Assembly: GCA_026394555.1 (NCBI GenBank)
Contig: JAPKXZ010000022.1
Span: 1-51,633, forward strand
Length of the DNA stretch: 51,633 bases
Source of the DNA: Methanothrix sp.
GTDB lineage: Archaea > Halobacteriota > Methanosarcinia > Methanotrichales > Methanotrichaceae
Reading direction: 5' to 3'
In this document: positions 10,966 to 51,516 of the stretch, in pieces
Numbering within the stretch: position 1 is the first letter of the stretch
Layout of the letters: each line of letters begins with the position of its first letter
Translations under genes and position numbers: made by a program
The notes under the pieces: model-generated
Databases searched by the model: none
The model's input: only the letters and a program-made list of their open reading frames with translations
Told to the model about the DNA's origin: nothing

Positions 10966-12447
10966 GTGATTAGAGTTTCCAGAAGGCAAATGCTGCTCTT
11001 GGCCTTGCTACTGCCCATCCTGCTTAGCGAGGCCTTGGCAGAAGTGCCAGGGCTTGATGCCCCTTCGCCGGCCGCGCCGGTCATCGCCGCCCAGGATATC
11101 CTGGCCCAAATAAGATCGGGCGAGCCGCTGAACTATGACAACGTAACAGTCGTCGGTCAACTGGATCTGGGGCCGGAAGTTGAGCCGGTCAAGCAATCGA
11201 TAAGAATCACCAACTCTCGCATCCAGGGATCGGTAAGAATTGAGGCCGTGACCTTCGCTGAGGTCCTGGATCTGCGGGGATGCATCTTTCAAGACGATGT
11301 CAGCTTTGTCAAGTCCGTTTTCCAGAAAGGTGCCAAGTTTTCCGGAGCAAGATTCCAAAAGCAGGCCGACTTTGCCGAGACCTATTTTCAGGGACCGGCC
11401 TCCTTCATTAGCACACTTTTTCAAAACGACAGCAGCTTTAGCAACGCCCAGTTTAATGGGGATGCCGTATTCCTCAATTCCGGCTTCGCCAGTGATGTCG
11501 ACTTCAATTACGCCAAGTTCCTAAGTTCCGGATCTTTTTTGAATGCTAATTTCGAAGATGTAAGCTTCTTTGAGACACAGTTTGCCGGGCAGGCCACATT
11601 TCGATTCGCAAAGTTTCGAGGCAATGCCACATTTGCCGCCACCCGTTTCGAGAGCGATGTGCTCTTTCGTGCGGCCCGTTTCTGGAGAGGAAGCACTTTT
11701 GGCCTGTCTAGCTTTGGGGGCTTGGCAGACTTTGGCAATGTTGATTTCAAAAAGACGGCCTTCTTTGGGGGGGTGAAGTTTGCAGACCTGGCCTATTTCG
11801 CCAATGCCCGGTTTGATGGGGATTTGATCCTGGAGGGTGCCCGGTTGTACAGCATGCAACTGGACAATGTCACATTCAATGAGAGTTCAAAAATTAACCT
11901 AAACAGCACGGACTTTTCCAAGTTCGTGGTCCACTGGAGCACCATACGGGATCGCATGGTGTACAATGGGGCCGCCTACCTGGCGCTGGTGAAGAACTAC
12001 AAGAGCCTAGAGTGGTTTGACGAAGCCGATGAATGCTACTATCAATACCGCAGAATCGGCCAGGAACAGACGCCCTGGGGCTGGGGCAAACTCTCGGACA
12101 TCGTCTCCTGGCTCTCCTGCGGTTATGGTGTTCGGGTGAGCTACACGGCCTTTTGGTGCCTTTTTACCATCCTTACCTTTGGAGTGGTATTTTGGGCAGG
12201 AAAGGGCATGGACAAGTTCGTGATCGAGGGCGTGGAGCTTCCCGGAGACCAGCAGCTTGTGCCCAGCAAACGCGTCTCTTTCACCGATGCCCTCTATTTC
12301 AGCATTGCCATGTTCACAACCTCCCAGGCGCCTGTGAATACCTATCCAGTAGGCGTTTACAGGTATCTGGCCATGGCGGAAGGGATATTGGGCTGGTTCT
12401 TCCTGGGCCTCTTCGTGGTGGTGCTGAGCGCTGTGCTCATTCGCTAA
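10966..12447 (+). CDS. Secreted/membrane beta-helix (pentapeptide_3) protein with C-terminal channel-like pore
   Basis: A 493-residue protein with a signal peptide (MIRVSRRQ then a Leu-rich core ending EALAEV). Residues about 90-300 have Phe recurring as F-x4-F-x5 (period 11), the Pfam pentapeptide_3 type that builds a right-handed beta-helix. A conserved linker follows (YNGAAYLALVKNYKSLEWF, ADECYYQYRR), then TM1 (about 395-417), a re-entrant FTDALYFSIAMFTTSQAP segment and TM2 (about 460-492), matching the two-helix ion-channel fold. The potassium filter (TVGYGD) is absent, so selectivity is unknown. A paralogue lies at 29.8-31.5 kb. The GTG start keeps the positive signal-peptide end; ATG 10990 is the alternative. 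A 17-codon frame with a strong ribosome site precedes it in frame. Confidence 0.8.
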   Translation: MIRVSRRQMLLLALLLPILLSEALAEVPGLDAPSPAAPVIAAQDILAQIRSGEPLNYDNVTVVGQLDLGPEVEPVKQSIRITNSRIQGSVRIEAVTFAEVLDLRGCIFQDDVSFVKSVFQKGAKFSGARFQKQADFAETYFQGPASFISTLFQNDSSFSNAQFNGDAVFLNSGFASDVDFNYAKFLSSGSFLNANFEDVSFFETQFAGQATFRFAKFRGNATFAATRFESDVLFRAARFWRGSTFGLSSFGGLADFGNVDFKKTAFFGGVKFADLAYFANARFDGDLILEGARLYSMQLDNVTFNESSKINLNSTDFSKFVVHWSTIRDRMVYNGAAYLALVKNYKSLEWFDEADECYYQYRRIGQEQTPWGWGKLSDIVSWLSCGYGVRVSYTAFWCLFTILTFGVVFWAGKGMDKFVIEGVELPGDQQLVPSKRVSFTDALYFSIAMFTTSQAPVNTYPVGVYRYLAMAEGILGWFFLGLFVVVLSAVLIR

Positions 12448-12532: not shown

Positions 12533-12607
12533 GGGCGCGTGGCCTAGTCCGGATAAGGCGGCAGCCTCCTAAGCTGTAGATCGGGGGTTCGAATCCCCCC
12601 GCGCCCG
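12533..12607 (+). tRNA. tRNA-Arg (CCU)
   Basis: A 75-base cloverleaf. Acceptor GGGCGCG/CGCGCCC, anticodon stem GCAGC/GCTGT with loop CTCCTAA (anticodon CCU), T arm GGGGG-TTCGAAT-CCCCC, discriminator G, no encoded CCA, no intron. TATA-like GATATACG lies about 35 bases upstream. Confidence 0.95.
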
Positions 12608-12632
12608 CTAGGCTTTTTTTTGAATTATAGGT

Positions 12633-19741: not shown

Positions 19742-19938
19742 ACTGTCAAGTATATCTTCTTAGCTATAAAACCATGATTATGCTTGCCTTGGCTTTTTCC
19801 CCTAAACATCCGAAACGCATTTATAGATAGAAATATAAAAAAAGGCAGAGAAGGGATTTAGTCTTATTTAAATCCGCCCAGATCGTGAAATAGCGATCCT
19901 TGGCAAGGGATAGTTGGGCAGGGGAAGGGAGTAGTGGC

Positions 19939-22900
19939 ATGAGTAGAGGTAGCTTTAGGGGTAGACTACCTCGGGGGAGGCTTGACTTTAAGGTAAGTCC
20001 GGCACTCCTGGGCGTAGCCATGTTCTTAGTTATTCTAGTTCCATCTCTATTCTACATATTCCCCAATGTCCTCGACTCTTCGCAATCATATAATGCATTG
20101 CAAAATGTCGCCTCCAATGGGGCATCTCTTTTAGCCACCGTCCGACAGTCGCCCGAAATGTCTCAGGTCTACCTGGAGAACACCGGCTCCTTAAAGCTGC
20201 ATCAGGTGCAGATTGTGGGCGGGGGAAGGTCCTTAGGCATACTATCTGAGCTGGTTTGCGGCGAGAAGAAGGTGCTGGCCGTCAGCGGCTACCCGGAGGA
20301 ACTGCGGGTGTCTGCGCTCGATCCTTCCCAGGGAATGGTTCAGGCTCGCGTCCAGTATATCTCGCCAGTCGCAAGCAAGGATATCACAAGCCCCGTTTCC
20401 AGTGAAGAGGTACTGAGCACCAAATCGGCACCAATCATTGCACCCACCTTTTCCGGGTCGGCAGGTACCGACGCCACGGCACCTTCATCCATTGATCAGC
20501 CCAGAAGAGAGACGCCAGAAACATCTGCACTCCTGCTGACCATAACTGCCAATAAGTCGGAAGGCATGGCAGGCGAGGTCGTGGGCTACAGATGCCTGGC
20601 GAAAAACCAGGGGGCTTTGGAACTGTCCGACATCCAGATCTCTTGTGCCGGAAAGATGGCCTCCACAAAGTATCTGCCTGCCGGCCAGGAGCTTTTCCTG
20701 GATGGAGCCATGCCGATTGAGAATAATACCAGACTATCGGCCAGCGTGCGGGCGTTGGATGGCAAGGGCGGGATCTACACCAACAATACCTCTCTTGACA
20801 TCTGGAAAATCTCTCCTTTCCTTAGGCTTATGGTTACTGCCCCCCCGCGACTGCACCACGGCGAGAAGGTTTCCCTGCAAATTCGCATTGAAAATAAGGG
20901 GACGGAAAACCTCACCGATATTCTTGTCAGGGATAGTTGGGGGGAGATCGGACGGATAGCGGAACTTCCTGCGGGCGATTTTCAGGTGCTGCAAAAGGAC
21001 GTGACGGTCTTTCAGAGCCAGAAGGACGCGTTTTACGTTATCGCCCATGATCAGGCAGGAGCAGAGGTCTATGCCAGTGAGAAGTTCGGCCTTCGGGTAC
21101 TAAACTCCTCGATCTTGATACAGGGCGACCCTTCTGAGGTCAGGATTTCTCCAGGAGAGCCCGCCGAGGTGACCTGGATCTTGAGCAACAGCGGCGAGGA
21201 ATTGCTGCAAAATATTACCTTAGAGGGAGACGGTAAGAGGCGCATTCTCAAGGAACTGGCCCCCGGCCAATCGATAAAGATGGCGGCCATTTACACCAAG
21301 AACTCTACCACCTGGATAAACGTTACTGCGAAGGGATTTGATGGCAACGGTTTTGAGACAGTCAGCACAGCGGGCGTGCTTTTAAGGTCCGTCTTGCCCG
21401 GCATAACTTTGAAGCTCATGCCCACCGAGATCGAGGTAAGCCCGGGTGAAGCGGCAGAGATCAGTGTCCTGATCACCAATTCCGGAGACGATCGCCTGGA
21501 AGATGTTGTCTTAATTTTAAACGGCTCCACGCTGTCATCCCTGGGCAGCATGCAGCCGGGTGAGTTCAGAGTGATAAATTCCAAAACCGCGATCTTCGAT
21601 AATTGCACAATTCAATTTGAGGCCAGGGGAAAAGACTCGCGCGGCCTGACATTGTCAGATGAATCTGCGGTCAAGGTGTCGGCGGTTGTTGCCGCACTCA
21701 AGATATTCGTCAGCGCTTCGCCGCCGGCCATTGTACCGGGAGAAAAGAGCCTTCTCACCTGCACCGTGGCCAACACCGGCATTGTCCCTCTTTACAGCAT
21801 ATTCGTAATCAGTAAACGGCTGGGGGCCCTCGGCAATATCGAATATCTTTCCCCCAAGCACCAGATGACGGTCACTATGGAAAAGATGGTGAGCGAAGCT
21901 ATCGATGATACCATAATTGCAGAAGGCTTCACTCAAGACAAGAAGCCCGTAAGCGGCACTTTTAGCCTGAGCCTGAAGCTTCTTCGTTCTCCCGGCCTGA
22001 TCCCACCGGACGTGGCAGAGAGTCGCGCATCCAGTCCTTTGCAGCCGTCCGGCGTGAAGACGGCATCGGCCAACATCAGCTTCGGCAATTTCAGCCTGCC
22101 CTTCAATCTGCCTGCCCAGGAGGAGACGTCCTCCGAAGTATCGAGAACGATGGCCAACGATGTGGATCGCACGACAACAAAGCAAAACAATGTAGTATTG
22201 GACAAAATTGCTAACCTGCTGCGCTATGTGGAAAGGCTTCTGGGATTGAATGAATCCCAATCGCATGCCGCCCCGGAGCTCTCTCCTGCGGGAAAAGATA
22301 GCCTGCCCGGATCTAAAAATTACGAGCTATCCATTGCGGGGGTGAAGGGCTCAGAGCACGGAGCTATAACCATTCTGGATGTCAATGCCTTGCCGTCCCA
22401 ACCCGCCGCCAATGAGCCGGTCAAGGTGACTGTACACCTGCAAAGCCCGGAGGGAATAAAGTCTGCGCTGGTGAAATACGGCCTGTCTGAGATGCCCCTC
22501 ACCAGGCAGGATATGCAAAGCGTGGATCAGGTCTATGACTGTGCCCTTCGTCTGGAATCGGGCAGCCAGGAAGACGGATACTGGAGCGGCACCATTCCCG
22601 GGCGAGGGCCGGGCACCTACATGCCTCTTTCCGTCTTTGTAACGGGTGGATCGAGCACTGCTGAAGGCGGACCTTATTTGATCCACTGGAGCACAGTCAA
22701 CTCCGTCCAGGAACGGACAATTGTCGCTCCTTCCGGAAGAAACGGCATGCTCTTCATTGAGTCCTCATCCGTAAAAGGCAGAGGCGAGGTCACCATCAAG
22801 GATACCATCCAGGGATCGACCATGCAGTTCAATGAGAAGATAATGGGCAACGGCTCCATCAGCCTGGAGACGCTGCGCACCATTGATCGCAGTGGATCGG

Positions 22901-23238
22901 TAGACAATTTCACCGAGAAGAAGGATCTGGTTTTTACCGGCGGCAATCTCAAAGGCCATAAGACTTTGGCTTCTCCTAACTTCCAGGGGGGCTTGGGAGC
23001 CTCGGTCACGGAGAGGTTCAACTTGAGCCACGTAGACAAGAGCGAGACCTCCAGCGTTCGCAGCAACAATTTTGCTAACAATACTTTGTCCTTCAAGACG
23101 GACCAGGCCTTCGATGGAACCTGGAACATCCAGACCAAGTATGCCAAGTTCTACAAGAAGATCAAGGCCGATCAGAAGTACACCGGCTCCTTCCAGACCC
23201 AGAAGGATATCGAGTTCTCGGATGCGGGACAGAAATGA
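19939..23238 (+). CDS. Large cell-surface protein with about five CARDB-like beta-sandwich repeats
   Basis: A 1099-residue surface protein with a basic N-terminus and a signal anchor (about 22-47). From about residue 190, five related segments of about 95-100 residues appear. Each has a PGE/GE strand, a (S/A)N(S/T/K)G turn and a later L.PG element (for example ISPGEPAEVTWILSNSGEE, VSPGEAAEISVLITNSGDD, IVPGEKSLLTCTVANTGI), the CARDB/NEW3 adhesion-type fold. A helical stretch near 745-765 follows, then an Ig-like domain and a Thr/Ser/Asn-rich C-terminal beta region. Many N-x-S/T sequons suggest glycosylation. The ATG at 19939 with GGGAG is preferred to an upstream TTG. Probably a sheath or surface-layer component (inference). 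Confidence 0.75.
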   Translation: MSRGSFRGRLPRGRLDFKVSPALLGVAMFLVILVPSLFYIFPNVLDSSQSYNALQNVASNGASLLATVRQSPEMSQVYLENTGSLKLHQVQIVGGGRSLGILSELVCGEKKVLAVSGYPEELRVSALDPSQGMVQARVQYISPVASKDITSPVSSEEVLSTKSAPIIAPTFSGSAGTDATAPSSIDQPRRETPETSALLLTITANKSEGMAGEVVGYRCLAKNQGALELSDIQISCAGKMASTKYLPAGQELFLDGAMPIENNTRLSASVRALDGKGGIYTNNTSLDIWKISPFLRLMVTAPPRLHHGEKVSLQIRIENKGTENLTDILVRDSWGEIGRIAELPAGDFQVLQKDVTVFQSQKDAFYVIAHDQAGAEVYASEKFGLRVLNSSILIQGDPSEVRISPGEPAEVTWILSNSGEELLQNITLEGDGKRRILKELAPGQSIKMAAIYTKNSTTWINVTAKGFDGNGFETVSTAGVLLRSVLPGITLKLMPTEIEVSPGEAAEISVLITNSGDDRLEDVVLILNGSTLSSLGSMQPGEFRVINSKTAIFDNCTIQFEARGKDSRGLTLSDESAVKVSAVVAALKIFVSASPPAIVPGEKSLLTCTVANTGIVPLYSIFVISKRLGALGNIEYLSPKHQMTVTMEKMVSEAIDDTIIAEGFTQDKKPVSGTFSLSLKLLRSPGLIPPDVAESRASSPLQPSGVKTASANISFGNFSLPFNLPAQEETSSEVSRTMANDVDRTTTKQNNVVLDKIANLLRYVERLLGLNESQSHAAPELSPAGKDSLPGSKNYELSIAGVKGSEHGAITILDVNALPSQPAANEPVKVTVHLQSPEGIKSALVKYGLSEMPLTRQDMQSVDQVYDCALRLESGSQEDGYWSGTIPGRGPGTYMPLSVFVTGGSSTAEGGPYLIHWSTVNSVQERTIVAPSGRNGMLFIESSSVKGRGEVTIKDTIQGSTMQFNEKIMGNGSISLETLRTIDRSGSVDNFTEKKDLVFTGGNLKGHKTLASPNFQGGLGASVTERFNLSHVDKSETSSVRSNNFANNTLSFKTDQAFDGTWNIQTKYAKFYKKIKADQKYTGSFQTQKDIEFSDAGQK

Positions 23239-26060: not shown

Positions 26061-29000
26061 TTACGGCATATAGTTTTCGTAAAGATAGATATCTTTGTCT
26101 CCACTACGATCATCGGTCCAGACGATTCGCCCCGTCTTTATGCGCGGCTGGGTCTGATTTGCCGCATCTGTGCAGATAGCTTTCTCTTTTTGCACATTAC
26201 GATCGTAGACATAGATATCCCAATTGCCGTTACGGTTATCCTGCCAGACAACGACGCCGTTTTCGACATCGGGATTGGTCTCATCCGCCAGACCCTTGGT
26301 TATCTGTATCTCCTTGCTGGTGTTCAGGTCGTAGGCATAGATATCCCAATTGCCGTTACGATTATCCTGCCAGACCACCGTATGTCCGTCCGTAGCCGGA
26401 TTCGTCTGATCGCTGGCATCGTTTGCCAGTGCCACAGGACTCTTCCCCTGCGTCCACATCCATATATCCCAGCTACCTAACTTATTGTCCTGATAGACTA
26501 CATAGTCTCCACCCGCCCGCTGATTAATGCCGCTCGGCGGATAATCAGAGGGTAACTCTTTTTCATAGAGCGGTCTCACATAGACCATCCAGCCGAAGTA
26601 ATTCTTTCTTAGGTATGCCAGATTATTTGCACTGAGGGAAATGGGTGTGGCATTCTCCAGACCGTAGACCAGCTCCGTGGAGTTGACAATGGATATGTCA
26701 AAGGTTCGGATGGACCAGTAATCCTCGATTTTATACTGATTCAAGGGATTTCTGGACATCCAGGCGATGATGCTCCCATCGATATCCGGATACATATCTT
26801 CATACGGGCCTGCCGCTATGGGTAGCTCTAGTTCCTGAGCCAGGCTGTAAACATAGATATCCGGTTTTCCGGTGCGATTGTCCATCCAGGCCACATAGTA
26901 TCCCACCTGGTCGTTGCCGCCCACGACCGGATAGCTTTGGTCGCCGGGTGCTTTGCATATGATGCTCGTCTGACCTGCGGTCACGGGCACTGTCCTCGGC
27001 CTACCGTTATGGGTGTTGAGCCAGACCAGCTTTTCGTCCATGCTGGGCTTGACCTGGCCCGGCCCTGCCTGGACCAGCTCATCTTTCCAGTTGGAGAGGT
27101 CCAGCTTGCGAATAGATGTGTCCGGATCGGTCCCGTCCACATAGGAGATGTATTTTCCCGATACTACGGCATTTGTCTGCTCTCCCGGTCGGGGATAGGT
27201 CTTGCCCCACTTTTTGTCCCAGAAGTAATAGGCGATATCTTTGCTCTTGGCGTCTTCCCAGGCGATGGTGTTTCCGGATATGTCGGGATAGAGCTGATCT
27301 CCGCCTTCTGTAAGTTTGGTCTCATTTCCGGTTATTAGGTCTTTGACATAGACATCAAAGTCGCCGTTTCGGTTGTCCTGCCAGACTACCAGATTGCCAC
27401 TGATGATAGGATACATCTGCTGGCCCTTTCCCTTGTAGACGGCCACGCTCTCGCCGTTCACCAGATCTTTCATGTAAATGTCCCAGTTGCCGCTGGAGTT
27501 GTCCATCCAGACGACTTTATCGCCGGAGATGGAAGGCCAGGTCTGATCTCCTTTTCCCGTCACAATGATCGATTCGATGCCTGTGGTCATATTCTTCATA
27601 TAGATGTCAGCGTCCTTATTTCTATAATCCGTCCAGACCACAGTATTCCCCGAAGCTTTGGGATAGAGCTGATCCCAATCTCCTTGGGAGATGGGCTTTT
27701 CCGCCCTTGTGAAGAAATCAAAGCCAAAGATATTCCAGTTGCCCCTCCGATTGTCGCTCCATACCAGCAGGCTGCCGTTGGTGCTGGGATAGTCAGTGGC
27801 GAGAAGCAGCAGCGGATCGGAGTTGATGTACCTCATCTTGATCTGGGAAAATCCATTGCTGTTATCCATCCATACAATCTTGTTGTCTGATATGATCTTG
27901 GAAGAGAGGTATGGCTTTATTTGATCCGGATCGCCCTTGCCGTCATTGGGCGTCTGCTGCATAGGAAGTGTGGCAACCGGTATTTCCACTCCTTTTTCCA
28001 GATCATGGAGATAAATATCCGAATCTCCACCCCTAACATCCAGCCAGGCTACATAGTTATTGTATATCGTCGGATAGCCCTGGTTGGCGGAATTGATTGT
28101 TACGGCTCTTTCTGTTTTGGTGGATAGGTTGTAGGTGTAAATGTCCCAATTCTTATTTCTGCCATCGGCCCAGACCACGGTATTGCCCCAGATCCAGGGT
28201 TGAGCCTGCCTATTAGGATCAGTGCAGATAGCGGTCTCCTCACTCGATGTCAGGTTGTAGAGATAAACATCCCATTTATTTTCACCACTGCGGGAATCGA
28301 TCCAGACGATTTTGTCGCCGTTTATCACAGGTGAGAGCTTGAAGGACTTTACAGTGGTGATTTGCCTCTCTTTTCCCTTAGCGATGTCGTAGAGATAAAT
28401 CTCCTCGCTGCCTGAGCGTTTATCGATCCAGATGATATTATTGCCGTCGATCATTGCGTAGCGGTTGTCGGATGAACCATTGGTAACCGTTGTGGTCTTC
28501 TTCGTCTTAAGGTTATAAAGGAAGATGTTGAGGTTTCCTTGACTCTTGTCCGTCCAGATCACATTTTCGCCGCTGGTGTCAGGACTGCTGTGGTCAAAAT
28601 CGCTATTGGTAATGTTTTGTTCCTTGTTAGTTGTGATGTTGAACAGATAAACGTTGAAGTATCCATTCCGGTTGTCCGTCCAGACGATGTTGTCCCCGGA
28701 GAGAGAGGGATTGGTATGGTTGAAAGGCCCGCTGGTTATGGATACATCGGCTAAAATCTTGAAGTCGTACATCCGGATATCCGGATCGCTCGGACCTTGC
28801 CTGTACTCCGTCCAGACGACGCCACGATCGCTGATGTCAGGCTCCATCTTTATGGTTCCCGGTGACAAGGGGAAATCATTGCCGGTCTTGATATCATAAA
28901 GATTGATATCGGTGCGGTTGTTGAGGTAGGCAATAAAGTTGCCAAAGATCCTGGGATCTGTCTGCATGCCGGGCTTAGTAAGCGTAGTCGTCTTCTGTGT

Positions 29001-29705
29001 AGTAATATCCAGGAAGGCGATGTCAGACTCGCCGGTACGATTATCGGCCCAAACCACGGTGTTGCCATAAACCGAGGGAAACGACTGATCATTTGGCCCA
29101 GTGGATATGAGCGATTCTTTGCCGCTGGCAATATCGTACATATATACATCAAAATCGCCAGAACGCTTATCCATCCAGACTATTTTATCGCCATTAATCT
29201 TGGGCTCAATCTGCTCTCCCTTCCCGGTGGATACGATGCTCTCCTTCTTGCTCGTCAGGTCGTAGAGACCAATGTGATAGGTGCCGTCGCGGTCATCGGC
29301 CCAAACCACCCGATTTCCGCTGATGTCGGGTTGGGTCTGGTTACCTTCGGCTGCAATCACCGCAGATTCGGTGCGGTTGACGGCATCGTACATGTAGATG
29401 TCCCCGTTGCCCGCGCGCATGTCTTGCCAGACGATGCATTCGCCGGATACAGCCGGATTGATCTGGAAGAACGGATTAATGCATACCCATTTCTCCAGGC
29501 CGGTCTCCAGGTCGTACATGAATATGTCGAAGTTTCCACTCCTGTTATCCGACCAGGCTACAATATGTCCGTCCATGGCAGGCTGCATCTGCTCCGAGCC
29601 CACCAGAATGGCTATGGGACGCTCTTTTCCATATTCCGCCCCGCCGACAGCGCCCACATAGAGAAATGCTGCCGTTATGATCATAATGAAGATTGCCTTG
29701 TGCAT
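26061..29705 (-). CDS. Giant secreted beta-propeller protein, 28 TolB/WD40-like blades
   Basis: A 1214-residue exported protein with a signal peptide (MHKAIFIMIITAAFLYVGAV). By eye I count 28 repeats of about 42 residues with consensus G..VVW.D.R.GN.DIY.YDL.TG.E......D..P.I.G. Several are nearly identical, such as VVWQDNRNGNWDIY, which occurs twice at the C-terminus. Each is one four-stranded blade of the TolB/PD40 type, and 28 equals four seven-bladed propellers. Similar proteins in Methanosarcinales are cell-surface or sheath proteins. No membrane anchor or sorting signal is seen at the C-terminus. It is flanked by a terminator-like hairpin and lies just downstream of the second pentapeptide channel gene, possibly cotranscribed. 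Confidence 0.8.
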   Translation of the reverse strand: MHKAIFIMIITAAFLYVGAVGGAEYGKERPIAILVGSEQMQPAMDGHIVAWSDNRSGNFDIFMYDLETGLEKWVCINPFFQINPAVSGECIVWQDMRAGNGDIYMYDAVNRTESAVIAAEGNQTQPDISGNRVVWADDRDGTYHIGLYDLTSKKESIVSTGKGEQIEPKINGDKIVWMDKRSGDFDVYMYDIASGKESLISTGPNDQSFPSVYGNTVVWADNRTGESDIAFLDITTQKTTTLTKPGMQTDPRIFGNFIAYLNNRTDINLYDIKTGNDFPLSPGTIKMEPDISDRGVVWTEYRQGPSDPDIRMYDFKILADVSITSGPFNHTNPSLSGDNIVWTDNRNGYFNVYLFNITTNKEQNITNSDFDHSSPDTSGENVIWTDKSQGNLNIFLYNLKTKKTTTVTNGSSDNRYAMIDGNNIIWIDKRSGSEEIYLYDIAKGKERQITTVKSFKLSPVINGDKIVWIDSRSGENKWDVYLYNLTSSEETAICTDPNRQAQPWIWGNTVVWADGRNKNWDIYTYNLSTKTERAVTINSANQGYPTIYNNYVAWLDVRGGDSDIYLHDLEKGVEIPVATLPMQQTPNDGKGDPDQIKPYLSSKIISDNKIVWMDNSNGFSQIKMRYINSDPLLLLATDYPSTNGSLLVWSDNRRGNWNIFGFDFFTRAEKPISQGDWDQLYPKASGNTVVWTDYRNKDADIYMKNMTTGIESIIVTGKGDQTWPSISGDKVVWMDNSSGNWDIYMKDLVNGESVAVYKGKGQQMYPIISGNLVVWQDNRNGDFDVYVKDLITGNETKLTEGGDQLYPDISGNTIAWEDAKSKDIAYYFWDKKWGKTYPRPGEQTNAVVSGKYISYVDGTDPDTSIRKLDLSNWKDELVQAGPGQVKPSMDEKLVWLNTHNGRPRTVPVTAGQTSIICKAPGDQSYPVVGGNDQVGYYVAWMDNRTGKPDIYVYSLAQELELPIAAGPYEDMYPDIDGSIIAWMSRNPLNQYKIEDYWSIRTFDISIVNSTELVYGLENATPISLSANNLAYLRKNYFGWMVYVRPLYEKELPSDYPPSGINQRAGGDYVVYQDNKLGSWDIWMWTQGKSPVALANDASDQTNPATDGHTVVWQDNRNGNWDIYAYDLNTSKEIQITKGLADETNPDVENGVVVWQDNRNGNWDIYVYDRNVQKEKAICTDAANQTQPRIKTGRIVWTDDRSGDKDIYLYENYMP

Positions 29706-29819: not shown

Positions 29820-31502
29820 TTAACGGATCATGGTTCTGCCTAAGGTTACCAGGAAGAGGGCCAAAAGAAGCCACCCTAAAACCGCCTCCACTGTAGCCAA
29901 ATAACGAAAGACGCCTACCGGGAACCATTTTACTTGCGTCTTGGCTGTGAAGACCATGGCGCTGAAGTAGATATTGTCCAGGAAGTTGAGAGATTCTGGG
30001 TGGGCGATGCTGGGGCCGGCACCATTTAGCGGCTCCACCACAATGCCGTCTCCCATCCAGAAGAGAAGAGCAAAGAGTATGATCAGAAAGCAGCTCAAAA
30101 ATACGGTATTCCTGGGTCGTACGCCGTAGCCGCATGAGATCCAGGCCATGCCGTCCATGAGTTTGGACCAGTTGATCTTGATCAACATTTTTTCCCGAAA
30201 GACCAGGGTCTTGCCGGACTGACTCATGCGCCGATAATGGTAGTAGCAGTCGTCTGCATCTTCGAACCACTCCTGGTTTCTGAAATTCTTGGCCAACGAA
30301 AGGTATGCTGCGCCGTCGTAGGCCAGATGTTGGCATAGTGTGGGCCATCTGACCTCCAGGCGGGCGAAATTTGCGTTATGCAGATCGATCTGCCCGGCAA
30401 ACACAACATCAAAGAGACGCATGACCTGGATTTTTGCATTTGCTAAATCCAGGTTCTTTTGAAAATTTGAGCAGGAGAAATTTGCAGTGCCTGTAAACTG
30501 TGTCCCCCGGAAGAATGCTTCTTTGCAGAACTGAACGCTTCGAAAGTCGGCTTCCTCTAAAAAAGAGACATCCGAGAATTGGGCTTCTTCTGCAAAGACC
30601 GCCTGCTCGAAGAATGCATCCTCTTGAAAGCAAGATCCCTGGAAGGATGCCTTTCCCTGGAAATGAGATCCTGTGAAGTTGACATCCAAGAACTCGGCCC
30701 GGAAGAAATTAGCTTCTTTCGCCATGTATGAACCTAAAAAAATGGCATTGCCTTGAAAGGAGGCAAACTCCATATTGATCTCTTCATTGAAGTTTGCACC
30801 GCGAAAATCGGCGTTTCCGGATAGTGCAGCGCTCTGAAAGCTGGCATAGCCCATGAATTTAGCACCCTGGAAATTAGCATCGGCAAGAAAGATCGCCTTC
30901 CAGAAGCTGGCCGATCTTCCAAAAGACGTCTGCCGGAAGTTGGCAGTCCCGGCAAATTTGGCCTGTGTGAAGTCGGCTTCATCCAGAAAGCTTGCCTCTC
31001 CAAAGTTGGTGCACAGCTTGCTGAAGCGAGCCGAGCCGAAGTGGGCCGGGCAATCGAAGACGGCATTGCCGAAGTTGGCTATAGCGGAAAAATGTGTCCC
31101 CTGGAATCGAGCTGAACCCAGGAAATTTGCATCTCGGAAGGTGGCATATCTCTTAAAGCTGCAGGATTCAAATCCGGCTCCGCCCAAGAAAGATGCACCT
31201 TTAAAGCGCGCCTCCTGCAAAAAGGTGCAGCCGCACAGGTCCAGGGCTTCTCGCAACCGGGCATGAGCGAAGTTCACGTTTCCCTGAAACTCAGAGTTCC
31301 TGATCTGGATCTTAGAGGCCACGACCACAGCCGTCTGCGTCTCTTTAGCGGAACGCTCACAGTGAATGGGGGGGAGATCAAGCCTGGTGATGTCTATGTC
31401 ACCGACTATGGCCACGTGATCATAGATGAGCGGATCGCCATTCTCGATCCTGGTTAGAAGCTCGCGGGCCTCAATTACGGGAAGATGCGGCTCTTTCGCC
31501 AT
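29820..31502 (-). CDS. Pentapeptide_3 beta-helix protein with C-terminal channel-like pore (paralogue)
   Basis: A 560-residue paralogue of the 10966-12447 protein. Residues about 85-355 carry a longer run of the same F-x4-F-x5 beta-helix repeat. The linker is conserved (YDGAAYLSLAKNFRNQEWF, ADDCYYHYRR), then SCGYGVRPRNTVFLSCFLIILF as TM1, a pore-like NFLDNIYFSAMVFTAKTQVKWFP segment and TM2 ending LGRTMIR. It has no signal peptide, unlike its relative, so the beta-helix may face the cytoplasm here. The potassium filter is again missing. A TTG further upstream is possible, but the ATG at 31502 has GAGG 8 bases before it and fits the TATA position. Confidence 0.8.
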   Translation of the reverse strand: MAKEPHLPVIEARELLTRIENGDPLIYDHVAIVGDIDITRLDLPPIHCERSAKETQTAVVVASKIQIRNSEFQGNVNFAHARLREALDLCGCTFLQEARFKGASFLGGAGFESCSFKRYATFRDANFLGSARFQGTHFSAIANFGNAVFDCPAHFGSARFSKLCTNFGEASFLDEADFTQAKFAGTANFRQTSFGRSASFWKAIFLADANFQGAKFMGYASFQSAALSGNADFRGANFNEEINMEFASFQGNAIFLGSYMAKEANFFRAEFLDVNFTGSHFQGKASFQGSCFQEDAFFEQAVFAEEAQFSDVSFLEEADFRSVQFCKEAFFRGTQFTGTANFSCSNFQKNLDLANAKIQVMRLFDVVFAGQIDLHNANFARLEVRWPTLCQHLAYDGAAYLSLAKNFRNQEWFEDADDCYYHYRRMSQSGKTLVFREKMLIKINWSKLMDGMAWISCGYGVRPRNTVFLSCFLIILFALLFWMGDGIVVEPLNGAGPSIAHPESLNFLDNIYFSAMVFTAKTQVKWFPVGVFRYLATVEAVLGWLLLALFLVTLGRTMIR

Positions 31503-31565
31503 GACCCTCGCCTCGGTAGATGATAATTTTAACAGATTCTCTCGCCCGCTCAAATTAGCAATGAC

Positions 31566-48733: not shown

Positions 48734-49195
48734 CTAAATCCTGGCACTGGTCTTCTTGTACTCAAAATCGCTAAATAGCACCCTGTAATCACTTATGCCT
48801 GAACTTTGCGAGAGCTGATCTGCGATCTTTAGGCAGTCATCCCGGCTTTTTGAGTGTACCATGGTGTAAAGATTATAAGGCCAGTCCTCGGATGCCGCCC
48901 TCTCGTAACAGTGGGTGACCTCATCGACTGAGGCAAATAGCACGCCTGCCCTTTCCACATCTTCGGGTGCCGCCTTCCAGGCAATCATGGCATTGGCCAC
49001 AATTCCCAGAGCCCTGTGACCAATGGTGGCGGCAAAGCGACGAATTATGCCGGCCTCTTGCAGGGCACAGAGGCGAACTATGACCTCCTGCTCGGATATG
49101 CCCACCAGATCTCCTAAGATCTGATAGGGTCGCGATGTAAGAAGCACTCCGTCCTGGGCGATCTTGAGGAGATCAAGATCCTTTTGATCGATCAT
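48734..49195 (-). CDS. Siroheme decarboxylase subunit (AhbA/AhbB, Lrp/AsnC-like)
   Basis: A 153-residue AsnC/Lrp-fold protein of the AhbA/AhbB type: an N-terminal winged helix (DLDLLKIAQDGVLLTSRPYQILGDLVG) then the family block IRRFAATIGHRALGIVANAMIAWKA, VTHCYERAASEDWPYNLYTMVH, and DYRVLFSDFEYKK at the end. AhbA and AhbB together decarboxylate siroheme to didecarboxysiroheme in the alternative heme pathway; only one subunit lies here, so the partner must be elsewhere. It could be mistaken for a transcription regulator, but the tetrapyrrole operon settles the role. The ATG at 49195 overlaps the NosD-like gene's stop (ATGA). Confidence 0.9.
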   Translation of the reverse strand: MIDQKDLDLLKIAQDGVLLTSRPYQILGDLVGISEQEVIVRLCALQEAGIIRRFAATIGHRALGIVANAMIAWKAAPEDVERAGVLFASVDEVTHCYERAASEDWPYNLYTMVHSKSRDDCLKIADQLSQSSGISDYRVLFSDFEYKKTSARI

Positions 49196-51327
49196 TGCCA
49201 CCCCCACGCGTCCTGGAAAGGATAACGATCAACGCCGCCCCCAGGAATTTGGCGCGGCACATCGGCAGGATTGCCATGGACGGAATGGTCGCTCCAGTAG
49301 TTGCCGCCGGCACTCGGCCCGCCATCCCACTGGTTTTGCCCGTTATCCGCAGCATTCTGGATGCCATTTTTCTCGAAGACGTTGTGGTAGAGCAAAAGTC
49401 CTGCGCAGTCCACTAAATTAGCGCCCGCGATCCAATTATCATAGATGTTATTCTCGGTGATGTTGCAATCCTTTGAGCTGCTTATGCGCAGGCCAAAACG
49501 ATTATTTTCACCCAGAATATTTCCAGAAAGGTTCAATCGGCGAGAGGACTGAACATAGATTCCCTGGCCGTTTCTTAGGGCGATGTTGTTCTGAACATTA
49601 ATATTTGCTAGCTGCTGCAAAGATATGCCGTCTAACTTGTTCCCGCTGGCATTATTTGCTTGTAGGAAACAGGAGCTGCTACCCGTAAGGGATATGCCTC
49701 GATCATTGGAAAATGCCGCATTTCCGATAATAGAGCAATTTTGGGATTTGCTGAGAAGCACCCCTTCCCCCTGGTTATTACTGACGCTACCGTTTTGAAT
49801 CCTGCATAGCCGGGATTCATGAAGAGCTATACCGCTTTGGCAGAACTGTATTTCGCACCCCAATAGGCTCAGGCCCTGAGCGTTGTCAGCGCGTAAGCCC
49901 TGGGCAGAACAATTACGGGCCTGGTCGTAGGCAAACTGGCACTCGGATGATGCCTCGACCAAAAAGCCCGTGTTGCAGTTCACGGACAGGCATCGAGATA
50001 TGGTGCACCCTTGGCTGTCTTGAAGGAGAAAACCCGTTTCCGCCCATGAGATGCTGCAATTTTGGATATTGCAGTTGGTGGAATTGACCAGCAACACGCC
50101 CATGCTGCTGTTTTTTAGGGTTAAGTTGGATGCACTAATGTTTTTGCAGGATACAAGCCCCAAAAAGCCGCTGTCCTCCGGCACCATGAGATCGGCTTTT
50201 CCAACCAGATAACAGATCGGCTTATTGTCTAAAAGATTGCTCTGGTCTATATCCTGCACAAAGAAATCATAATTTGATGACCCTGATCGTCCCTGGCCGG
50301 GATCAACGCGTAGGTTGTAGGAGTTTTCCAAAAGGACGTTCTCCCTCAGCATATTTTTCGTACATCCACGCAAAGATATTCCATAGACATTCCGGTATGC
50401 CTGGTTGGAGATAAGAGAGTTTTCTATTGAGCCCTGAAGAAGGATGCCATTGCCGTTCTCGGAAAGATTATTGCTCGCCAGGAGGTTATGATTGGCCCCT
50501 TCCACAAATATTCCAGCCCGCTCGTTCTTCTCACAGATGTTGCCGGATACGTTGCAATTTTGCGATCCGCGCAGGCTTATGCCGACTTTACCGCCTGTTA
50601 TGTAGTTTTTGGTCAGGTTACTATTGCGAGAGTCGACAACATCAAGACCGCTCACATAGCCACGGGACAGGTTGTTATAGGAAACAATGTTGCCATGAGA
50701 TCTGGTGAGCACTACTCCAAATCCGTTTCCAGAAAAGGTGTTATTGACAACGGCATTTCCAAGGGAGTCTTCTATCAGCACCCCGCCTTGCAAAGCAGAT
50801 ATCTGGCAGCCGGAAATCATGCACCCACCAGTGCCGTTGATTCTAATGGCAGTGCTACCCGAGATGGTGCTCTGTAGAACCTCATTTTTCGCGGCGAAGA
50901 TCTCTACACCCTGAGGCGAATTGATCCGGCAATCCCTTAGAGAATTATTCTCACCGGTCACTTTGACGGCCGTCGCGATGCCCCCTATGGTGCAGCGCAC
51001 GAGTTGATTGTTGGGGGAGGCAAGGCTTATGCCAGCATCTTTTCCTCGGGCCTTTATGGTGATGTCGGAAACCCGGCAGCCGGGCGCAGTTACAGCTAAT
51101 GATCCTTCGATAATTACTGCACCTGTGCCGGTGATGTTCACGCTCTTGTCAACAATTGCTCCGGCATAATTTCCAGGCAAGATTTGAATCGTATCTCCAT
51201 TGCCGGCCAGGAAGACGGCGGCCAAAAGCGTATTAGCATCTCCTGATTCACCAGAATCGACAATTAGTGTCTTAGCCTGGCAGGAAGCGACGAGAAGCAA
51301 GAGAAAGAGGACAATGCATAGTTTCAT
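49192..51327 (-). CDS. Secreted NosD-like right-handed beta-helix protein
   Basis: A 711-residue exported protein with a signal peptide (MKLCIVLFLLLLVASCQA; the Cys could mark a lipoprotein-like site). After ILPGNYAGAIVDKSVNITGTG come tens of PbH1-type coils of 22-24 residues with repeating N(N)L/NCxI patterns (NCNVSGNICEKN, NNLSENGNGILLQGS, NCSIIGNAAFSNDRGISL), the NosD/pectate-lyase-like solenoid. The end reads NYWSDHSVHGNPADVP, a common end of methanogen NosD-like proteins. NosD proteins load copper onto N2O reductase, but methanogens have none, so a surface role is likely. Its stop overlaps the ahb start, tying it to the heme operon. ATG 51345 is an alternative start. Confidence 0.8.
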   Translation of the reverse strand: MKLCIVLFLLLLVASCQAKTLIVDSGESGDANTLLAAVFLAGNGDTIQILPGNYAGAIVDKSVNITGTGAVIIEGSLAVTAPGCRVSDITIKARGKDAGISLASPNNQLVRCTIGGIATAVKVTGENNSLRDCRINSPQGVEIFAAKNEVLQSTISGSTAIRINGTGGCMISGCQISALQGGVLIEDSLGNAVVNNTFSGNGFGVVLTRSHGNIVSYNNLSRGYVSGLDVVDSRNSNLTKNYITGGKVGISLRGSQNCNVSGNICEKNERAGIFVEGANHNLLASNNLSENGNGILLQGSIENSLISNQAYRNVYGISLRGCTKNMLRENVLLENSYNLRVDPGQGRSGSSNYDFFVQDIDQSNLLDNKPICYLVGKADLMVPEDSGFLGLVSCKNISASNLTLKNSSMGVLLVNSTNCNIQNCSISWAETGFLLQDSQGCTISRCLSVNCNTGFLVEASSECQFAYDQARNCSAQGLRADNAQGLSLLGCEIQFCQSGIALHESRLCRIQNGSVSNNQGEGVLLSKSQNCSIIGNAAFSNDRGISLTGSSSCFLQANNASGNKLDGISLQQLANINVQNNIALRNGQGIYVQSSRRLNLSGNILGENNRFGLRISSSKDCNITENNIYDNWIAGANLVDCAGLLLYHNVFEKNGIQNAADNGQNQWDGGPSAGGNYWSDHSVHGNPADVPRQIPGGGVDRYPFQDAWGWQ

Positions 51328-51516
51328 CTTTCCTGCTTTATGCATTTGCAAGCTATTAAATCTATGGCAGTAGGGTAAGTTTATTTATTTTGAATATCCT
51401 GCAACTATGCTACGGAGTGCGCCTCAGCAATTTAATAGATGCGAGAACCTTCACCATGGGCCACCAATTTTGCCTATGCATCTCATGTTCCTTTATATAC
51501 CTAACCTCCCGAAAGT
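51328..51516. other. Promoter region of the NosD-heme operon and spacer
   Basis: No gene is seen. On the minus strand, A+T-rich TAAATAAACTT-type sequence near 51377-51392 could supply a TATA element for the operon. TTTATATAC at 51491-51499 is another TATA-like element. Confidence 0.3.

Follow-up and report, generated by a model that had tools for sequence, protein, structure and literature searches.

A K+-channel-derived pore-loop protein with a replaced selectivity filter and a probably exported pentapeptide solenoid in Methanothrix

Two-helix K+ channels (Ion_trans_2; KcsA, KirBac and NaK) are built as TM1, pore helix, loop and TM2, with a hinge glycine. Glutamate receptors are thought to derive from a K+ channel that was inverted and joined to a sensor; few natural cases show a channel turning over, or the consequences of losing the K+ filter. 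The topology of GluR0 is opposite to that of KcsA, as shown by PhoA fusions (PMC13099474), and the K+ filter is not conserved in glutamate receptors (PMC6385376). A 2010 survey of prokaryotic glutamate receptor channels found none in archaea (PMC2950845). The effector of the Hailong anti-phage system, HalA (PDB 9nyi, NCBIfam NF051894), is described as an ion channel that is blocked by poly-dA (PMC13275509). The pentapeptide repeat proteins MfpA, EfsQnr and Rfr32 are soluble and have no pore; Rfr32 also has a signal peptide (PMC8145042). Ion channels go unmentioned in a 2021 review of pentapeptide repeats, and nothing relevant was found in the literature on pentapeptide-repeat ion channels, or on the family described here in Methanothrix.

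Here we describe a protein of Methanothrix, a major methane producer, that compares in part with each of these systems. P0001 shares with the two-helix K+ channels the order TM1–pore helix–loop–TM2, the hinge glycine and homology at the level of profiles, and its ancestry is joined to theirs through relatives that carry TVGYGDWYP; it is unlike KcsA, KirBac and NaK in having no TVGYGD, in bearing a solenoid ectodomain and, probably, in its opposite membrane orientation. Its likeness to GluR0 and the ionotropic glutamate receptors lies in the signal peptide, the putatively extracellular sensor domain and, if our reading of its topology holds, an inverted pore of K+-channel type; in contrast to these receptors P0001 is archaeal and has no split ligand-binding domain. 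Pfam scans of P0001 gave no match to Lig_chan, and the C terminus stops right after TM2. The analysis offers a testable function for a large family in Methanothrix that has no annotation and whose members are likely surface proteins.

Domain order and predicted structure

The window, the whole stretch of 51,633 nucleotides that was analysed, contains an ORF at 10966-12444 (+), the strand on which all features of P0001 lie. It encodes 493 amino acids from a GTG start at 10966, and an in-frame stop two codons 5' of this GTG bears out the extent originally assigned to the gene. The adjoining ORFs, as read from their translations, encode a radical SAM protein, a response regulator and hisG; a probable tRNA gene, recognised by eye, lies directly 3' at about 12535-12608 (+). 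P0001 begins with a hydrophobic, signal-like N terminus, followed by a Pentapeptide_3 beta-solenoid, a linker containing ADECYYQYRR and the TM1–pore helix–loop–TM2 module. The initial annotation had placed a signal peptide, a solenoid, a conserved linker and a two-helix pore in one chain, and all of these parts are indeed found within the single reading frame. The predicted signal peptide (10966-11043) has the n-region RVSRR, a hydrophobic core and a cleavage-like site between ALA and E; the hydrophobic segment is retained among orthologues, with individual letters variable.

The solenoid opens with an N-cap (AAQDILAQIRSGEPLNYDN, 11086-11145) common to the whole family and extends from 11128 to 11925 with a period of 11 residues. 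It matches PF13576 (Pentapeptide_3) with an E-value of 5e-32 and 110 bits, against a cut-off of 27, and F–F pairs at a lag of 11 number 31, compared to 6.7 in shuffled sequences (maximum 14). The spacing of F alternates between 5 and 6, as in the F-x4-F-x5 pattern first noted; calling this pattern strict was a slight overstatement, for the register shifts around residues 196-217 and 261-272. The possibility that the repeat forms a new kind of beta-helix was rejected, since the match is to the known Pentapeptide_3 solenoid. The solenoid is thus of the same type as in MfpA, EfsQnr and Rfr32, to which P0001 adds a pore module.

An AlphaFold2 model of P0001, built on 42 family sequences, has a mean pLDDT of 88.9 (about 98 in the solenoid); the turret is badly modelled. 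Two helices form the linker (residues 335-368, 11968-12069), within which lies the ADECYYQYRR signature (12025-12054). Across the family the linker follows the consensus D-A-[DN]-[DE]-C-Y-Y-x-Y-R, with C, Y, Y and R invariant, and the conservation first claimed for it therefore extends family-wide. A short, amphipathic, slide-like helix of about 12 residues (373-384, 12082-12117) precedes the turn CGYGVR. Next come TM1 (residues 391-411, 12136-12198), the turret loop (12199-12279), the pore helix (residues 439-452, 12280-12321), an extended loop, and TM2 (residues 465-492, 12358-12441), which carries an invariant hinge-type glycine (LGW). A model of the pore alone is consistent with that of the full protein. 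The succession of TM1, pore helix, extended loop and TM2 predicts a re-entrant loop and agrees with the two-helix module proposed at the outset; nothing among the homologues marks the hydrophobic end as a mere anchor. A simple C-terminal anchor is disfavoured by the predicted loop together with the conservation of the segment occupying the filter position.

Descent of the pore and replacement of the filter

The selectivity filter of TVGYGD type is absent from P0001, where TTSQAPVNTYP (12316-12348) stands at that position. Several relatives outside the Methanotrichaceae combine this linker and pore with FTTVGYGDWYP at the filter; in alignments their TVGYGDWYP falls on TTSQAPVNTYP, as the initial annotation had proposed for TVGYGD. 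These canonical-filter relatives score 58-62 bits against Ion_trans_2 (PF07885) and match the profile of the family with E-values of 1e-31 to 2.5e-48. Alignment of the family profile to TVGYGD channels (hhalign) gives a probability of 98.7% and an E-value of 1.7e-16. P0001 itself reaches 22.7 bits against PF07885 (cut-off 22.5) as the sum of two pieces flanking the filter, and 11.3 bits, under the cut-off, as a single match. Sequence searches of the PDB with P0001 alone gave no match and those with the pore profile nothing above threshold, with sub-threshold matches to KirBac and NaK. Because relatives with the same linker and pore keep TVGYGDWYP, the filter of P0001 is a replacement. On these comparisons of sequence we firmly place the pore of P0001 among descendants of K+ channels, its filter having since been exchanged.

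At the level of fold (Foldseek), the pore model matches HalA, KcsA, NaK and KirBac in the PDB with probabilities of 0.93-1.00, although E-values are weak, at about 0.1. The best of these matches is HalA (probability 0.99), followed by KcsA, NaK and KirBac, and the full P0001 model matches HalA along its whole length; the pore region of HalA also has weak sequence similarity to canonical-filter and cytoplasmic relatives. No match to NF051894 (equivalog cut-off 250 bits) was returned for P0001, nor any above the cut-off in its genome, and a PADLOC search of P0001 gave no match, which led us to reject P0001 as a component of a Hailong anti-phage system. No HalB-type nucleotidyltransferase was seen among the neighbouring ORFs. 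HalA also differs in its sensing of a DNA signal inside the cell, as the solenoid of P0001 appears to be extracellular.

The replacement segment is itself conserved. Among 26 SQAPVN orthologues, conservation is highest in the pseudo-filter (0.98) and the pore helix (0.97), and lower in the turret (0.81), the solenoid (0.72) and the signal peptide (0.46). That TTSQAPVNTYP is among the best-conserved segments argues for function, and the replacement looks to be a functional one. Related groups have in common a loose [SA]-[QK]-x-P motif (SQAP, SQGP, AQSP, SQPP, GKTP); this suggests that the replacement is old and has since diversified. Separate losses of the filter also occur within the canonical clade (TMSYKEW, FMNNGKW and FMSHNNW, for example).

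The same data bear on a different interpretation, in which the protein has retained the K+-channel fold to anchor the solenoid in the membrane as a tetramer, or to relay signals for it, and conducts no ions. The very different filters of the paralogues (SQAP, SQGP, TANSKG, GKTP, AKTQ, SGAS), some with a lysine in the loop, would accord with a pseudo-channel of this kind, as would the high copy number per genome, which suggests a repertoire of surface proteins. However, the orthologues of P0001 hold this loop among their best-conserved segments, and they retain the pore helix and hinge glycine, which a plain anchor would not need; we regard a non-conducting pore as rather unlikely.

Export of the solenoid and orientation of the pore

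A clear signal peptide is present in most family members, including those with canonical filters, and absent from some. In the solenoids of the 81 members with a signal peptide, N-glycosylation sequons occur 429 times, compared to 219 in shuffled sequences and 128 for the mirror motif. Counting only sequons outside the repeat register (those in which the middle residue is neither F nor L), there are 19.2 per 1000 amino acids in these 81 members versus 5.6 in the 26 without a signal peptide, a figure that falls further when two truncated artefacts (L096 and L194) are excluded. Among the proteins of the window, sequon density is 15.9 per 1000 amino acids in those carrying an export signal and 3.9 in cytosolic ones; the genome encodes an STT3 oligosaccharyltransferase. 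Sequons are not clearly enriched in the signal-peptide members whose filter is canonical. Taken together, the solenoid is likely to be exported and extracellular.

The distribution of positive charge also differs with the signal peptide. The turret contains on average 4.5 K+R in members with a signal peptide versus 1.1 in those without, being K/R-rich in most of the former and almost devoid of K/R in the latter; the 40 residues preceding TM1 show 4.7 versus 7.4. A widespread family of Cys/His-rich channels without a signal peptide (9.0 before TM1, 1.9 in the turret) has the pattern of the members without one. Under the positive-inside rule these charges would place both termini of the signal-peptide members outside and let the pore loop dip into the membrane from the cytoplasmic face, and a solenoid outside the cell would most likely mean a pore that is upside down relative to KcsA. 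The TANSKG clade, which has a signal peptide, has just one turret charge. On the tree, members switch between having and lacking a signal peptide about five times, and only two of these switches fall on well-supported branches; with so few independent events, neither the charge correlation nor the sequon correlation reaches significance after correction for relatedness. An extracellular solenoid with an inverted pore is, we infer, the simplest reading of both patterns, and an inversion relative to KcsA, as in GluR0, is plausible.

If the hydrophobic start were not a signal peptide, or if the later GTG present in the ORF (V27) were the true start, the solenoid could be cytoplasmic and the pore conventionally oriented, as in channels of KcsA type and in the widespread Cys/His-rich pentapeptide channels, which have no signal peptide and are K/R-rich before TM1. 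This is improbable: a hydrophobic start recurs in 81 members, canonical ones among them, the sequon enrichment resembles that of exported proteins, and positive charge is distributed in the reverse way to members without a signal peptide. An additional membrane crossing by the short helix ahead of CGYGVR would reconcile export with the orientation of K+ channels, but that helix is amphipathic and spans only about 12 residues, and the turret charges of signal-peptide members point to the cytoplasm, making this improbable as well.

Our preferred reading, which we consider probable, is that P0001 is a pore-loop protein derived from a K+ channel, with an exported solenoid, an inverted pore, a replaced filter and gating linked to the cell envelope. 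To its computed part (homology, filter replacement, conservation and the predicted loop) we add export and inversion, which we infer from the patterns above. The signal peptide would send the N-terminal solenoid to the cell exterior, and the helical linker and slide-like helix would connect it to TM1, the re-entrant loop and TM2 in what we assume to be a tetramer. If both termini lie outside and the loop reaches in from the cytoplasmic face, the arrangement of GluR0 and other glutamate receptors, the solenoid would be attached at the gate side and face the envelope, where it may sense or tether an envelope component. Methanothrix cells are covered by a proteinaceous sheath. Gating, likewise assumed, could be operated by the solenoid pulling on the slide-like helix and TM1. 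Since the K+ filter has given way to a conserved (T)SQAP-type loop, P0001, assuming that it conducts, would admit ions other than K+ or discriminate poorly between ions. The original proposal of a solenoid sensor or gate joined to a pore without a K+ filter thus stands as far as the joining of the two modules; it did not foresee descent from K+ channels, an ordinary Pentapeptide_3 repeat, a solenoid that is likely outside, or the pore inversion that would follow.

More broadly, and tentatively, archaea may have separately invented an inverted pore-loop channel coupled to an ectodomain, in which orientation follows the signal peptide within one family and genome, and in whose exported branch the K+ filter gave way to a conserved loop of SQxP type with a new selectivity. 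Paralogues in close relatives differ in whether they have a signal peptide and in whether the filter is canonical or lost, so that both inversion and filter loss can be tested.

Distribution of the family and its genomic neighbours

A search with the linker and pore profile found the family in 47 of 50 Methanotrichaceae genomes, and the close named relatives of P0001 belong to Methanothrix and the Methanotrichaceae; the family is expanded in this group. Elsewhere the distribution is patchy, chiefly other Methanosarcinales and the f9 genomes of a second class, and the linker-plus-pore module, whose presence in other archaea had been raised as a check, is widespread among related archaea. The genome of P0001 has about ten paralogues, gathered from loci, of which most have the same linker and pore; TVGYGD is in none of those read. 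Two paralogues of this genome (L015, L016) have a signal peptide and solenoid and end without the two-helix pore.

In 17 of the 20 loci with enough upstream sequence (L029, L030, L031, L032, L036 and L047 are among these loci), the SQAP gene has a family gene directly 5' on the same strand, usually of the SQGP type, so that a heteromer may be the common form. The SQAP gene of the window is solitary, with no family gene directly upstream. The second member in the window (29820-31553, -) has no signal peptide, 13 Cys and the pseudo-filter TAKTQVKWFP, with a lysine in the loop; like other paralogues that lack a signal peptide, it has the reverse of the sequon and charge patterns of P0001. Large predicted exported proteins rich in sequons are encoded in the window at 26061-29705 (-), 19894-23235 (+) and 49195-51384 (-), among them a WxDxR-type repeat protein and a beta-helix protein.

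The only bacterial matches are two adjacent members in a Chitinivibrionales bacterium (L100), which have signal peptides and carry TPGVN/TPGVD in the loop; lateral transfer is a possible source. A separate archaeal family (L145, L147, L149, L154 and L166-L168) combines a Cys/His-rich N terminus, pentapeptide repeats and a GYG motif with a pore that carries TLGYGDIQP or TSLGYSNIQP; this family is weakly similar to HalA, and its members are possibly cytoplasmic ligand-gated channels.
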